From positions 1,178,001 to 1,242,000 of the forward strand of contig NZ_CP034834.1 of the NCBI RefSeq assembly GCF_004014715.1: DNA of 64,000 nt. Reading direction: 5' to 3'. This DNA is from Pseudoalteromonas sp. R3. GTDB lineage: Bacteria > Pseudomonadota > Gammaproteobacteria > Enterobacterales > Alteromonadaceae. Position 1 is the stretch's first letter. Every line of letters starts with the position of its first letter. The position numbers and the translations under genes are program-made. This document shows positions 52,230 to 56,556 of the stretch, in pieces. The notes under the pieces are model-generated. The model saw nothing but the letters and a program-made list of their open reading frames with translations, did not search any database and was not told where the DNA came from.

Positions 52230-53324
52230 ATGACCCTGGTATCTTTTCATTATCTGGCACTTGCAATCTGCCTGGCTTGCTTGCTGATGCAACTGCGGGT
52301 TAAACAAAAACAGACGGCCCATATATTGTTCGCTGTATTTTGTGGTTCGCTGGCGATGATTGCCGCCAGGAAAATTACTGGCCATTCGGTCGGCGCTTAT
52401 CAATACCTGATCGGTATGGGGGCATGCGCAACATGTAATTGTTACTGGTTATTGGCCCGAAGTATGTTTCGTAAACATCAGCCGATTGCACTGGTCCATA
52501 TTGCTTTGGCTATCGTGATAGCGCTACTGGTGGTGATTAAACAGGGCTATTTGTTTGCCAATGCGCAATGGTTGTCTGTTGATAACAGTTTCACTGTGCT
52601 GACAGGTGTATTGTCTGAGCTCACAACGTTACTCTCATCTTGCGTACTGGTACTGACTTTTTGGGAGGGGTGCAGGGGCTTCAATGATTGCACCAGAACT
52701 GAAAAGGCACAGCGTGTGTTATTTTTGGCCACCTTTGGCCTGGCCGTGGGGATCAGCAAATCGATGCAGCCCTATGTTACTCAGTCACCCGAATTAAAAG
52801 ACTGGACTGTCTCAATCATTACCCTGTTTGTGCTCGTGAGCACGCAAGCTCAGTTGTTGTGGCACTTTGGTTTATCCGGCAAACGCGGTAAATCTGGCTC
52901 AGCGCCGGAGTCTCGCGCTATATCTAATACGGAACCAGTCAATTGTAACAGCGATGGTGACCAGCTGCTTGATACGCTTAGCAGGCTTATTCATGAGGAA
53001 CAGTACTACCTTCAACCCAATCTGAAAGTTGCTGACTTGGCCAGGGCGCTTGATGTGCCAGAATACAGAGTAAGTCGTGCGCTTAAACCACAACTAAAAG
53101 AAGCCAATTTTAACCAGTTTATTAACCGCCTGCGAATAGAGCATGCGCAAAAACTGTTACGAGACCCTGAAAATCAGCACTGGCCAGTACTGGTGATCGG
53201 GCTGGAAAGTGGATTTGCTTCGGTTGGGCCTTTTACCCGGGCCTTTAAATCCGTGACGGGGACGACTCCAAATCAATACCGTAAGCAGATGCAGGAAAAT
53301 GAACATGCAGCGGTTATCCAGTAA
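52230..53324 (+). CDS. Membrane-anchored AraC-family transcriptional regulator
   Basis: 364 residues. The first ~215 residues carry about six or seven hydrophobic helices, and the C-terminal ~100 form an AraC DNA-binding domain with two helix-turn-helix motifs (LKVADLARALDVPEYRVSRAL and WPVLVIGLESGFASVGPFTRAF, ending T-G-T-T-P-N-Q-Y-R-K). This is the layout of integral-membrane AraC proteins that sense a membrane or periplasmic signal directly. Divergent from DUF2306 with about 210 bases between, an often conserved pairing. Its transcript seems to end at the hairpin at 53356-53380. Confidence 0.88.
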   Translation: MTLVSFHYLALAICLACLLMQLRVKQKQTAHILFAVFCGSLAMIAARKITGHSVGAYQYLIGMGACATCNCYWLLARSMFRKHQPIALVHIALAIVIALLVVIKQGYLFANAQWLSVDNSFTVLTGVLSELTTLLSSCVLVLTFWEGCRGFNDCTRTEKAQRVLFLATFGLAVGISKSMQPYVTQSPELKDWTVSIITLFVLVSTQAQLLWHFGLSGKRGKSGSAPESRAISNTEPVNCNSDGDQLLDTLSRLIHEEQYYLQPNLKVADLARALDVPEYRVSRALKPQLKEANFNQFINRLRIEHAQKLLRDPENQHWPVLVIGLESGFASVGPFTRAFKSVTGTTPNQYRKQMQENEHAAVIQ

Positions 53325-53355: not shown

Positions 53356-53380
53356 GTGCGACTTGTGTCGCACTTTTTTT
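53356..53380 (+). terminator. Terminator after AraC gene, overlapping a BlaI-operator-like dyad
   Basis: GTGCGAC (53356-53362) / GTCGCAC (53367-53373), 4-base loop, followed by TTTTTTT: a compact rho-independent terminator. The right arm plus T-run (GTGTCGCACTTT) is also the mirror of AAAGTGCGACAC at 53387-53398, so the site may double as an operator. Confidence 0.7.
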
Positions 53381-53386
53381 GTTGTT

Positions 53387-53407
53387 AAAGTGCGACACAT
53401 GTCACAC
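53387..53407 (+). promoter_or_regulatory. Probable BlaI-type operator upstream of the repressor gene
   Basis: The dyad GTGCGACACATGTCACAC (53390-53407) is centred on GACACATGTC, close to the TACAnnTGTA core bound by BlaI/MecI-family repressors. It lies 20 bases before the repressor's start codon, so autorepression of the operon is expected. Confidence 0.6.
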
Positions 53408-53427
53408 AAAAAGAAAAACAGCACAAT

Positions 53428-53808
53428 ATGAAACCCAATACTACTGAATTAGAAATCCTCAAACTGCTATGGCAACAGGAGCCTCGCACCGCCAAAGAAA
53501 TTCACGATGCGATAGCTGAGCGATTTAATTGGTCCTATTCCTCAACACGCAAAACCCTGGAGCGCATGGGTGATAAAGGCCTGCTGGCCGTCGGAGAGCA
53601 AGGCAATAAAAAATCCTACACAGCCAGGGTAGAGAAAGTGCCCACGCTGGCAGCTTATGCGCAGGAGTTTGCCAAAAATGTATTGGAACTGGATGGACCG
53701 TTGCCGGTTGCCATGTTTGCCGACAGTCGCCTGATTGAGTCACAGGAGCTAGACGAACTGGAGCATCTGCTGCAATCTCTGTCTGAACAGGATAAACGAG
53801 GACAGTAG
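53428..53808 (+). CDS. blaI: BlaI/MecI/CopY-family repressor
   Basis: 126 residues. N-terminal winged helix: T-T-E-L-E-I-L-K-L-L-W-Q, T-A-K-E-I-H-D-A-I, and WSYSSTRKTLERMGDKGLL, a close match to BlaI/MecI (where the pattern reads T-V-x-T-x-L-x-R-L). The C-terminal dimerisation helices end in an acidic leucine-rich segment (ELDELEHLLQSLSEQ). In the family model it represses its own operon until the partner M56 protease triggers its cleavage. The next gene, starting one base after this stop, encodes such a protease. No beta-lactamase gene is nearby, so the controlled function is more likely the downstream murein hydrolase. Confidence 0.9.
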   Translation: MKPNTTELEILKLLWQQEPRTAKEIHDAIAERFNWSYSSTRKTLERMGDKGLLAVGEQGNKKSYTARVEKVPTLAAYAQEFAKNVLELDGPLPVAMFADSRLIESQELDELEHLLQSLSEQDKRGQ

Positions 53809-53809
53809 T

Positions 53810-55192
53810 ATGACTTTGGCAACGTTGTTTGCAGTCTTAGGATCACTGCTACTGTGGTGTATTGTCAGTGCTGCCCTGGTAAAGGTTGGTCGCATGCTGA
53901 GTCGTTATCATCCGGCGTCTCCCGCTTTGTGGTGGGCTGTTCTGGCACTGAGTTTTGTGCCCTTTATTCCGTTGCCAGACATGGCGCTAAACGGCTCGAT
54001 CCCAGTAGTACTTTATGACTTTGTTGAACCGGCGGGAAAGCTTCATTTAAGCACGGAATTATTGCTGGACACCAAGTATGAATGGGACTGGCTGTGGGTG
54101 TTCATTGCGCTGACATCGCTGCTTGCTATGCAAAGTATTCGCTATTTGGCGCGCTTACTCAACAAGTTTGCCAGCCTGCGCGCTTTGATGGCAAGTGCCG
54201 AGCCTCTGCAGGCAAGCCTTTGTGACTCACTCGTGCCTCTACCTCGTGTGAAAGGTCGGCAGATCCCCGTTTTTGTTTTACCGCTCAATTGCACGGCATT
54301 TGCTGCGGGTGTGCGTAAGCCCGTGATTGTCATGCCTCAGTATTTCACTACTTTACCTCAGCCCAAACAGCAGACCTTGCTGTTGCATGAAGTCACGCAC
54401 CTCGCCCACAAAGATCACATTGCCATTATGGTTTGGCAGGTCGTGAGATGTTTGTTTTGGTTCAACCCGGCGATTGGCAAAATGGAAGCGGCGTTTATCA
54501 ATGCTATGGAAGCGCGCTGCGATGCGCAAACCATTGAGTACTATGGTATTAACCGCCAGCAATATGCGGCGACCTTGTTGGAAGCGCTGAAACACAGCAC
54601 ATCCCACAAAACGCCCAATGCTGTAGCGGGGTTTGCTTCAGAGGCGCTGTCGCTGGCTGACTATAAAAGCAGACTGATACAGATAATGAAGCCGGTTAAA
54701 GCACGGCACCGATTTGTCATTGTGAATGTACTACTGATCGGTCTGTTCAGCGTGTTTATTTCTTACCAGGTAAAGCCTTTGTTAAGTCCTCAGACCCCGA
54801 ACTGGCAGTGGCCGATGAGTGATTATGAAATCAGTGCTCACTTCGGTCACGTGTCGGCTTTTCGCAATCATAAACCTCACGGCGGACTTGATCTGGTTGC
54901 CGCAAAAGGCACCCCACTGGGTGCTCTGGCCACCGGCAAGGTGCTGGTCGCGGATGATACCAGTCTGGCGGCAAACTATGGCAAAACTGTACTGATCCAG
55001 CATAGCAATGGCTATCAGAGTTTATACGCTCATCTGGACAGCATTGCTGTGCAACCAGGTGAGTGGGTCTCAGCCGGAGAGGTTGTCGGTACCCTGGGAG
55101 ACAGTGGCCGTGTTACAGGGGCGCATCTGCACCTGGAAATTCTGGCTGACGGAGAGCGCCTTGACCCGCTGAGCATATTTTCAAAGGATTAA
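53810..55192 (+). CDS. BlaR1-like M56 metalloprotease fused to an M23 (LytM) peptidase domain
   Basis: 460 residues. N-terminal membrane helices (about 3-27, 40-57, 93-110), a cytoplasmic M56 zinc-protease loop with H193-E-V-T-H197 and a downstream E235-A-R-C-D ligand region, and a further membrane helix (302-320). The periplasmic C-terminus is not the penicillin-binding sensor of BlaR1 but an M23 endopeptidase domain (337-455) with intact zinc ligands H357-G-G-L-D361 and H439-L-H441 and the usual Y-G-K-T-V-L-I-Q-H and L-Y-A-H-L. The fusion suggests sensing of peptidoglycan, or murein cutting coupled to repressor cleavage (inference). Co-transcribed with the BlaI-like gene (1-base gap) and the MepM-like gene (3-base gap). 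Confidence 0.9.
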   Translation: MTLATLFAVLGSLLLWCIVSAALVKVGRMLSRYHPASPALWWAVLALSFVPFIPLPDMALNGSIPVVLYDFVEPAGKLHLSTELLLDTKYEWDWLWVFIALTSLLAMQSIRYLARLLNKFASLRALMASAEPLQASLCDSLVPLPRVKGRQIPVFVLPLNCTAFAAGVRKPVIVMPQYFTTLPQPKQQTLLLHEVTHLAHKDHIAIMVWQVVRCLFWFNPAIGKMEAAFINAMEARCDAQTIEYYGINRQQYAATLLEALKHSTSHKTPNAVAGFASEALSLADYKSRLIQIMKPVKARHRFVIVNVLLIGLFSVFISYQVKPLLSPQTPNWQWPMSDYEISAHFGHVSAFRNHKPHGGLDLVAAKGTPLGALATGKVLVADDTSLAANYGKTVLIQHSNGYQSLYAHLDSIAVQPGEWVSAGEVVGTLGDSGRVTGAHLHLEILADGERLDPLSIFSKD

Positions 55193-55195
55193 ATT

Positions 55196-56512
55196 ATGAA
55201 ATACCATCTGATGATCGCCATACCTGCGGGTATGGTGCTAAGCACACTTGTGTCTGAGTTACCTGAACAGGCGAGCGAAAAAGTAGAGCCAGCATGTACG
55301 TCGGTTATTGCACACGCCAAACCTGGAACACAGCATCTCACCTCTGAGCGAACTGTGTCTTTACAACCCGCTGAACATGAAAGTGCACCAAAGGTTGAAC
55401 ACAAGATCCTGACGCTTACGGCCGGTCAGTCATTTATTGCTTTGCTGAAACCTTTTGGACTAAATGAGCATCAGGCGTTTAAGTTGCAGCAATTGATGGC
55501 GCCAGAGATAAATCTGAGCCAGCTACAGGCTGGACAAAAGGTTCAAATCGGACTGACGGCGGAGCAGCTGAGTTCTGTTACATTGGCAACCGGATTTGCG
55601 CAGCGTCTGAGTGTTTCTATGGAGGGAGAGTGGCAAAAGCGCCTCTATGAGCTTGATACCCATTCAGCTCAGGCTGTTCATGATGTCGCTATTACTCAGA
55701 GCTTATATGAATCATCTGTAAATGATGATGTGCCGTTAGATGTCGTGAATCAGGCGATTACTGTATTTTCCCACTTTGTCGACTTTCAGCGTGAAATACA
55801 TCATGGTGATGTACTTACGCTAATGTATGACAAGGCTGTGCTGGTTGTCAAAGATGGACTACACCAAAAGCTGGAGCAACCTGGTCAGTTACGCTTTGCC
55901 AGGTTGCAGAATCAGGGTGAAGATCTGACGGTATATCATCATGACGGGGGCAATGAACTGAGCGGTTTCTACTTTGCTGACGGTCGGCCTGCGCAGAGTT
56001 TTTTACTCAAAACACCATTAAACGGGGCACGTTTATCATCTAAGTTTGGCAGTCGCAAGCACCCTATTCTTGGCTATACCCGTTTGCACGCGGGTCTGGA
56101 TTTTGGCGCTCCTGTTGGCACTCCTATTTTTGCCGCGGGTAATGGCACCATAAAAAAAGCGGGATGGGGAGGCAGTTTTGGTAATCGAGTGGTGATCCGT
56201 CATACCAATGGCTATGACACCCTATACGCACATCTCAAGGGCGTCGCAAAAGACATAAAGCCGGGTACTCGCGTCAAACAGGGAGAGGTGATTGGGTATC
56301 TGGGTAACACCGGATTGTCGCAAGCTCGCCACCTGCATTATGAGGTGCACAAAAATGGTAAACCGATTAATCCGTTATCGCTCAGACATGTTGAGCAGCA
56401 GCGCCTGAAAGGTGATGACCTGACCCAATTGCAAAAAGCAATTGCAAAGGTTCATAAAAACCCGGAGCTTGGTCAATACGTTACCAATATTTCTGTCACG
56501 GATAATTTGTAA
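55196..56512 (+). CDS. MepM-like M23 murein endopeptidase
   Basis: 438 residues. An N-terminal hydrophobic segment is followed by a LysM/OapA-like region (LTLTAGQSFIALLKPFGLNEHQA...LQAGQKVQIGL), a Csd3/MepM-like middle domain (AITVFSHFVDFQREIHHGDVLTLMYD) and a C-terminal M23 domain. Zinc ligands are visible as H-A-G-L-D (near 298-302) and H-L-H (near 378-380), with G-S-R-K-H-P-I-L-G-Y before them, so it should be active on peptide crosslinks (D,D-endopeptidase type). AAGGA precedes the ATG, 3 bases after the M56-M23 stop. As last gene of the operon it is the probable effector. A terminator follows. Confidence 0.9.
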   Translation: MKYHLMIAIPAGMVLSTLVSELPEQASEKVEPACTSVIAHAKPGTQHLTSERTVSLQPAEHESAPKVEHKILTLTAGQSFIALLKPFGLNEHQAFKLQQLMAPEINLSQLQAGQKVQIGLTAEQLSSVTLATGFAQRLSVSMEGEWQKRLYELDTHSAQAVHDVAITQSLYESSVNDDVPLDVVNQAITVFSHFVDFQREIHHGDVLTLMYDKAVLVVKDGLHQKLEQPGQLRFARLQNQGEDLTVYHHDGGNELSGFYFADGRPAQSFLLKTPLNGARLSSKFGSRKHPILGYTRLHAGLDFGAPVGTPIFAAGNGTIKKAGWGGSFGNRVVIRHTNGYDTLYAHLKGVAKDIKPGTRVKQGEVIGYLGNTGLSQARHLHYEVHKNGKPINPLSLRHVEQQRLKGDDLTQLQKAIAKVHKNPELGQYVTNISVTDNL

Positions 56513-56527
56513 CTTTCAGAAGAGTAG

Positions 56528-56556
56528 AGTAGAGCATAGAACATGCTCTACTTTTT
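56528..56556 (+). terminator. Rho-independent terminator of the blaI operon
   Basis: AGTAGAGCA (56528-56536) / TGCTCTACT (56544-56552), 7-base loop, followed by TTTT. It lies 16 bases after the MepM-like stop. Confidence 0.82.

Follow-up and report, generated by a model that had tools for sequence, protein, structure and literature searches.

In Staphylococcus, a BlaR1-type switch turns on penicillin resistance. What would such a switch respond to if its penicillin sensor were exchanged for the domain of a peptidoglycan hydrolase? This question is raised by a locus of Pseudoalteromonas sp. R3 that lies in a 64,000-nucleotide stretch of DNA (contig NZ_CP034834.1, positions 1,178,001 to 1,242,000), called here the window. 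There, a gene for a BlaI-family repressor is followed after 1 base by a gene for a fusion of an M56 membrane protease with an M23 (LytM) domain and, 3 bases beyond the fusion, by a gene for an M23 endopeptidase. Together with two upstream dyads and a downstream hairpin, the array spans 53356-56554 (Table 1). An earlier note on this DNA had named these genes and gaps, both dyads, and the fusion residues H193, E194, H197, H357, D361, H439, and H441, and all are present where it placed them. Taken together, the relatives of the locus and the features of its proteins tip the balance slightly towards a peptidoglycan-responsive BlaR1-type pair, in which the LytM domain is the receptor and probably also an enzyme.

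The BlaI-Fusion Pair

Eighty-three loci were read, 49 in Pseudoalteromonas and 34 outside it, and 82 of them contain an open reading frame (ORF) for the fusion. Left out were L045, which is on the same contig as L142; L259, which has no fusion ORF; and L026, which comes without upstream DNA. The fragments L253 and L260 were excluded from the loop counts, the linker counts, and the tree. Three of the genus copies are broken: in L260 a frame change splits the fusion, in L253 the fusion carries an in-frame stop, and the M23 third gene of L007 lies in two frames.

A same-strand BlaI gene accompanies 81 of the 82 fusions, the single miss being a locus that starts at a contig end. The gap between the two genes is at most 60 base pairs (bp) in 78 loci and 64 bp in L233 (it is not meaningful in two broken copies). 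Upstream of BlaI, a shared operator, TGCGACAnnTGTCGCA, is present in 77 of 81 loci (at most 3 mismatches of 14), and an M23 gene, recognized by profile match, comes next in 44 of 48 Pseudoalteromonas loci, a count that includes the shortened frames of L251 and L253 and the split gene of L007. Given these three recurrences, the arrangement is not due to chance. The search for other M56-M23 fusions and their neighbours, which the earlier note had proposed as a check, shows the pair to be conserved beyond the genus.

The repressor of the window has the winged-helix Penicillinase_R match above the family cut-off and falls below every curated cut-off of the named models BlaI, MecI, and CopY (the best is CopY, at 50.5 of 121.95 bits). 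No other Penicillinase_R gene was found in its genome. Of the M56 matches there, the fusion alone exceeds the family cut-off, and a second, weak one lies elsewhere. The sequence VAMF(97)ADS stands at the position of the cleavage site of S. aureus BlaI and MecI, with Phe97 opposite the MecI cleavage-site Phe in a phmmer alignment. Phe97 is kept in 80 of 81 BlaI proteins and Ser100 in all 81. Two papers give the site for BlaI as N101-F102 (PMC3305447, PMC9834060); the P1 residue of the window BlaI site is Met, not Asn. By analogy, BlaI is predicted to bind the operator and to be inactivated by proteolysis.

The BlaI proteins of the fusion loci match a subfamily profile at 2e-29 or better. At nine M56 places of the same class that have no M23 domain, a BlaI-like gene is present in six and matches this profile at only 2e-4 to 3e-14, and the operator precedes BlaI in one (L266). 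From these weak matches and the single operator it follows that the operator and this BlaI subfamily tend to travel together with the M23 fusion.

The Two Halves of the Fusion

The M56 part of the window fusion contains the HExxH...E of this family of membrane metalloproteases, and none of H193, E194, H197, and E234 varies among the 81 ORFs that extend over these positions. In BlaR1, a loop occupies the protease site, and its presence is incompatible with BlaI binding (PMC9834060). A candidate for such a loop is found around Phe275, which is present in 75 of 80 fusions; in the window, the two sites read VAMFADS (BlaI) and VAGFASE (M56 loop). When about 343 windows were ranked by likeness to the partner BlaI site, in the 74 loci that have both the loop Phe and a BlaI site, the loop came within the top five in 49 (median rank 3), and among Phe-centred windows alone it ranked first in 29. 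AlphaFold2 was run on ten sequences, and residues 9-286 of the model align structurally to BlaR1; the blaR1_generic model gives 39.1 of 400 bits over the M56 part. The conservation of the BlaI cleavage-site Phe (80 of 81) and of the M56-loop Phe (75 of 80) thus argues for machinery of the BlaR1 type, in line with the earlier note.

The C-terminal domain matches Peptidase_M23 only and shows no penicillin-binding sensor, and because the fusion lacks that sensor, it is not a beta-lactam receptor. Within the LytM domain, D361, H439, and H441 are invariant in 82 fusions, H357 is present in 81, and H408 in 78. Following the LytM assignment, we take H357, D361, and H441 to be the zinc ligands and H408 and H439 to be the catalytic His pair. 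Residues of about 327-459 of the AlphaFold2 model align to LytM domains, including those of enzymes such as ShyA; the structural comparison suggested by the earlier note also brings up the activator EnvC. The domain follows the membrane part at the sensor position, as that note had held, and the distance from R288 to H357 is 67-79 residues in 73 of 80 proteins. The fusion is probably a membrane-anchored endopeptidase, predicted to hydrolyze peptidoglycan cross-links.

Operators and Possible Targets

With at most 1 mismatch, the operator is found in 68 loci, and in 49 loci a pair of sites lies 33 or 34 bp apart. Of 4050 single-base shuffles, 23 contain it, as does 1 of 81 reversed sequences. 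Because loci of this kind supplied the consensus, the count is no independent test of the motif; what the shuffles exclude is composition. The four loci that lack it, L235-L238, form one family, presumably alphaproteobacterial.

Nineteen other genomes together have 17 exact matches, of which 16 fall at the promoter of the pair itself. Allowing 1 mismatch gives 42 places; 26 belong to that promoter, and 16 lie away from it, compared with 14 in the reversed control. In G846, none of the matches is at its own pair. The two-gene pair is apparently self-repressed, and the sequence supports the claim of the earlier note that self-operators would derepress a murein hydrolase. In the genome of the window, a pattern written from the two dyads has no further place with zero mismatches. 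A regulon beyond the operon was rejected for this genome: with up to 2 mismatches there are 32 strand hits versus 39 in the reversed control.

Ten regions covering 11 of the 16 other places were read, and in eight of them the site is inside a gene. One site, in L212, lies between genes. At L208:4425-4485 (contig 42 of G379), tandem operators 45 bp apart immediately precede an M1-peptidase-like gene. The BlaI-fusion pair of that genome is on a different contig, and the M1-peptidase-like gene is a possible trans target.

The Variable Third Gene

For the third gene of the window, the best NCBIfam hit is ShyC (170.8 of 700 bits), followed by MepM (131.2 of 341) and ShyA (111.8 of 700). Since all three scores are below the equivalog cut-offs, the gene is MepM-like and is not assignable to one of the three. 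In the four Pseudoalteromonas loci without an M23 neighbour, the next gene is a weak alpha/beta hydrolase in three (of the two that were scanned, one exceeds the Pfam cut-off) and a polysaccharide deacetylase in one.

Outside the genus, 19 of 34 loci have a same-strand gene within 160 bp. Among these neighbours are an M23 protein (1), MltD-like (2) and class-C-like (2) proteins, deacetylases (3), and esterases or alpha/beta hydrolases (5); L145 has a further MltD-like transglycosylase as a second gene. The names MltD, class C/AmpH, and deacetylase are taken from Pfam and from NCBIfam scores that lie below the curated cut-offs. Strictly wall-acting neighbours number 8 of 19, or 13 of 19 if the esterases are counted, whose connection with the wall is a guess. 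The type of neighbour changes about 14 times on the fusion tree, a figure that is approximate for a quick tree with long branches and with "none" counted as a state; the deacetylases need four gains or losses. Counted as "none" were L233, L236, L237, and L238, whose downstream ORFs overlie genes called on the other strand, and L149, L155, L156, L157, L231, L235, and L239, which have only ORFs below 100 residues within 160 bp. For three neighbours, the type was taken from related loci in place of a Pfam scan: for L247 by clade and equal length with L245 and L250, for L142 from the contig of the scanned L045, and for L240 by BLAST grouping of L161.

The three-gene order on which the earlier note leaned therefore holds in Pseudoalteromonas (44 of 48), and elsewhere the pair is constant while the third gene varies or is absent. 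As the defining output, the M23 third gene has to be given up, being replaced or missing in 33 of the 34 loci outside the genus. Because of this variation across Pseudomonadota, the core is the two-gene pair, with a swappable cargo that is often wall-acting.

A Model and Its Alternatives

The following sequence of events is proposed for a peptidoglycan-responsive pair. BlaI, bound to two dyads over its own promoter, would keep the operon low. The fusion would sit in the inner membrane with the M56 protease on the cytoplasmic side; in the periplasm, a short linker that varies little in length would carry the LytM domain. When this domain meets its substrate or product in the peptidoglycan, be it nascent, uncross-linked, or fragmented wall, the domain or a nearby extracellular loop would move, freeing the M56 active site of its own Phe-275 loop, and M56 would then cut BlaI before Phe-97. 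Induction would supply more of the fusion, itself a probable membrane-anchored endopeptidase, and the lineage-specific extra gene, which in Pseudoalteromonas would be the MepM/ShyC-like endopeptidase. The sequences themselves show the parts, how they are conserved and occur together, the operators, and the exchange of neighbours; topology and BlaI cleavage are modelled here on BlaR1. Peptidoglycan as the ligand, LytM catalysis, and stress as the trigger we only infer; that peptidoglycan sets the periplasmic state is drawn from the LytM fold, the intact active site, and the recurrent wall-acting neighbours. The main effector may be what the pair itself encodes, because 15 of the 34 outside loci have no third gene and operator-like places elsewhere do not outnumber those of the reversed control (16 against 14). 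In Bacillus licheniformis and S. aureus, a peptidoglycan-derived dipeptide binds BlaI or MecI itself (PMC3305447), and so LytM cleavage could conceivably feed a second, cytoplasmic signal.

Several observations weigh against this model. By sequence, the similarity of the M56 part to BlaR1 is weak (E 4e-4), with Phe275 one residue off Phe284 in that pairwise alignment, and for this reason the loop is said only probably to correspond to the BlaR1 autoinhibitory loop. Confidence in the AlphaFold2 model is modest (predicted local distance difference test, pLDDT, 76.3; predicted template modelling score, pTM, 0.60), with residues 54-92 and 269-278, the latter including the Phe275 loop, under 50. 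The closest folds of the M23 part include, besides enzymes, EnvC, a LytM domain titled activator. Seven of 80 linkers are longer, at 84-113 residues, so a rigid linker is not universal. L235-L238, besides having no recognizable operator, carry H408Q, and L233 carries H357Q; perhaps the L235-L238 branch is sensor-only and catalytically reduced. The nine M56 proteins without M23 have a TonB domain in four cases and otherwise no recognized extra domain or a weak M48 match; the partner domain is thus a variable slot, whose identity alone is no proof of sensing. The third gene is missing from 15 of the 34 outside loci, and the remaining outside neighbours are TonB receptors (4), a resistance-nodulation-division (RND) pump (1), and a pirin (1). 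Wall-acting output is therefore common, not universal, and the idea that all neighbours are peptidoglycan-related was too strong. A link to peptidoglycan is not demonstrated for the eight esterase or hydrolase neighbours, and of the four matches to Abhydrolase_2 or the like, three are weak: L046 and L245 do not reach the Pfam cut-off, and L247 was assigned without a scan. Finally, operator-like places occur often outside the pair, although no more often than in the reversed control.

Some of these points would also fit a LytM domain that is output only. The locus would then encode an autoregulated, membrane-tethered endopeptidase, with M56 and BlaI answering another cue, such as membrane state, misfolding, or a ligand of the loop between transmembrane (TM) helices TM2 and TM3. 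The nearly invariant M23 catalytic residues agree with this, and in the 15 outside loci without a close same-strand gene, the fusion would be the sole non-regulatory product. The operator data agree as well, since exact matches concentrate at the promoter of the pair and places elsewhere do not exceed the control. However, BlaR1 topology places a sensor exactly where the LytM domain lies, the linker is short and varies little in length, and the exchangeable extra genes suggest that the pair supplies their regulation. On balance, we consider an output-only LytM domain unlikely.

The nature of the cue allows two other explanations. If the pair were a defence switch, wall damage by antibiotics, lysozyme, or the peptidoglycan hydrolases of rivals would trigger it, and the neighbours would be protective modifications, as the class-C-like hydrolases in 2 loci, the polysaccharide deacetylases in 4, and the dipeptide binding of Gram-positive BlaI and MecI (PMC3305447) might suggest. 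Yet the commonest neighbour is a murein hydrolase, which is expected to worsen damage, and the penicillin-binding sensor domain is lacking. This explanation, which differs from the peptidoglycan-responsive pair mainly in the physiological cue, seems quite improbable. Alternatively, falling periplasmic zinc would strip the LytM metal and induce two zinc proteases and a zinc-dependent effector, a response analogous in purpose to the zinc-starvation endopeptidases. Both domains and several neighbour types (M23 proteins and the deacetylases, which are metal-dependent) do use metals. However, zinc enzymes are not known among the MltD-like, class-C-like, and esterase families, and H439, presumably not a zinc ligand, is as conserved as those that are. 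A zinc sensor is accordingly the least probable of these explanations, and only a slight chance is given to it.

The preferred reading of the pair as peptidoglycan-responsive has a wider form. The presence of the same switch beside various envelope genes in relatives suggests a built-in cell-wall monitor. Tentatively, and with somewhat less than an even chance, the fusions may constitute a Gram-negative family of receptors for peptidoglycan. Their intact LytM domain would serve as an enzyme-receptor, and its binding or cutting of periplasmic wall would act through a BlaR1-type relay that destroys BlaI, inducing exchangeable wall-editing enzymes. If so, the BlaR1 scaffold would be a general transmembrane relay with exchangeable sensors, the penicillin sensor being one case. 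This bears on how Gram-negative bacteria sense the state of the wall at the membrane and match the supply of endopeptidases to it. With its defined operator, predicted cleavage site, and two mutable active sites, the pair is a compact two-gene candidate that is directly testable.

Distribution

Sampling of genomes extended up to the phylum, Pseudomonadota. The fusion or a recognizable broken copy is present in 48 of 108 Pseudoalteromonas genomes, of which 46 have it open (one cut by a contig end), G070 has an in-frame stop, and G024 a copy split by frame; G006 has an M23 stretch only. In the order sample, 19 of 394 genomes pass at E 1e-30, all with the fusion, and outside the genus the distribution is patchy. 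For the class and the phylum, the majority of passing matches covers M23 only, and genomes matched over both domains were counted: 4 of 369 in the class and at least 12 of 398 in the phylum (the window's genome is included in all three samples). Hosts named among the matches listed are Rheinheimera, a Colwellia assembly, Stenotrophomonas, and Luteimonas; these names come from a scan of genome contigs that kept the 80 best among at least 588 places, most of them with M23 alone. No tblastn match at 1e-25 was obtained in 72,556 plasmid records.

Two stand-alone M23 proteins of the order sample, L147:1649-2029 (G159) and L159:3937-4707 (G435), pass 1e-30 with the fusion profile, the former about 4.5 kb from the fusion of its genome. 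The fusion at L232:4707-7055 continues for about 320 residues beyond the M23 His pair and has no Pfam match besides M56 and M23 at 0.001.

Layout of the Locus

The features of the locus are collected in Table 1. Dyad 1 is followed by a T run and therefore also scores as a terminator-like stem. The candidate promoter is absent from the promoter scan listing; a similar sequence is seen in those loci of Pseudoalteromonas relatives that were displayed. Folding is in line with the downstream terminator of the earlier note, yet the consensus terminator scan does not list this hairpin.

Table 1. Features of the locus, in window coordinates
Feature	Positions	Strand	Basis or remark
Operator dyad 1, GTGCGACTTGTGTCGCAC	53356..53373	.	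similar sites at the corresponding position in relatives
Candidate promoter, TTGTGT-17-TAAAGT, between/overlapping both operators	53363..53391	+	by eye; weak consensus match
Operator dyad 2, GTGCGACACATGTCACAC, 34 bp from dyad 1	53390..53407	.	sites of the same kind in relatives
BlaI-family repressor, 126 residues	53428..53808	+	Pfam Penicillinase_R PF03965, 1.7e-21; MecI alignment; conservation
M56-M23 fusion, 460 residues: predicted BlaR1-type membrane metalloprotease, LytM domain after last hydrophobic helix	53810..55192	+	Pfam; AlphaFold2 model; structural matches
Peptidase_M56 region, residues 26-276 (HEVTH 193-197, E234, loop Phe 275)	53885..54637	+	Pfam, 7.6e-24
Peptidase_M23/LytM region, residues 356-453 (H357, D361, H408, H439, H441)	54875..55168	+	Pfam, 1.1e-27
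MepM/ShyC-like M23 endopeptidase, 438 residues, hydrophobic N-terminus	55196..56512	+	profile matches
Hairpin with U tract, probable terminator	56526..56554	+	folding: -15.3 kcal/mol, z -4.5; none of 200 shuffles reaches this stability

Just upstream of the operon, on the same strand, lies a gene for an AraC-family regulator (52230-53321). Of 29 genus loci compared, each with about 1 kb of upstream DNA, L004 and L006 have a relative of it beside the operon, and the remaining 27 do not. Just outside the window, an identical 18-mer at contig 1 positions 1171003, 1172458, and 1173913 recurs in 1455-bp steps, which suggests a long tandem repeat.

Comparison with Known Systems

The combination of M23 and M56 has itself been mentioned before. 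A review of the M23 family counts M56 among the catalytic domains that accompany M23, together less than 1% of database hits, and treats the combination, in its accessible part, as a rare architecture with no operon, operator, mechanism, or function (PMC9662197). A literature search whose reach left out most subscription papers found no functional study of such a fusion. Thus the locus is a variant of BlaR1/BlaI with new features.

Among other M56 loci of Gammaproteobacteria (L261-L266, L268-L270), the protease likewise adjoins a BlaI-like gene in 6 of 9; unlike the fusion loci, none has M23, four have TonB_C, the BlaI profile matches are weak, and only L266 has the operator. With MepM, ShyA, ShyC, and the Csd/Pgp3 enzymes, the fusion shares the M23 fold and the full zinc and catalytic set, and it differs in that its LytM domain is C-terminal to a membrane protease. 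The closest likeness is to BlaR1/BlaI and MecR1/MecI of S. aureus and Bacillus licheniformis, which also have a BlaI-family repressor, tandem self-operators, an adjacent M56 protease with HExxH and E, the Phe of the BlaI cleavage site, a Phe in the (here probable) autoinhibitory loop, and an extra domain after the last TM helix. In contrast to these systems, the hosts here are Gram-negative, the extra domain is LytM (M23) instead of a penicillin-binding domain, the operator core is GACAnnTGTC, and what is regulated would be the fusion itself with variable envelope genes of the same operon, rather than a beta-lactamase or PBP2a divergon.

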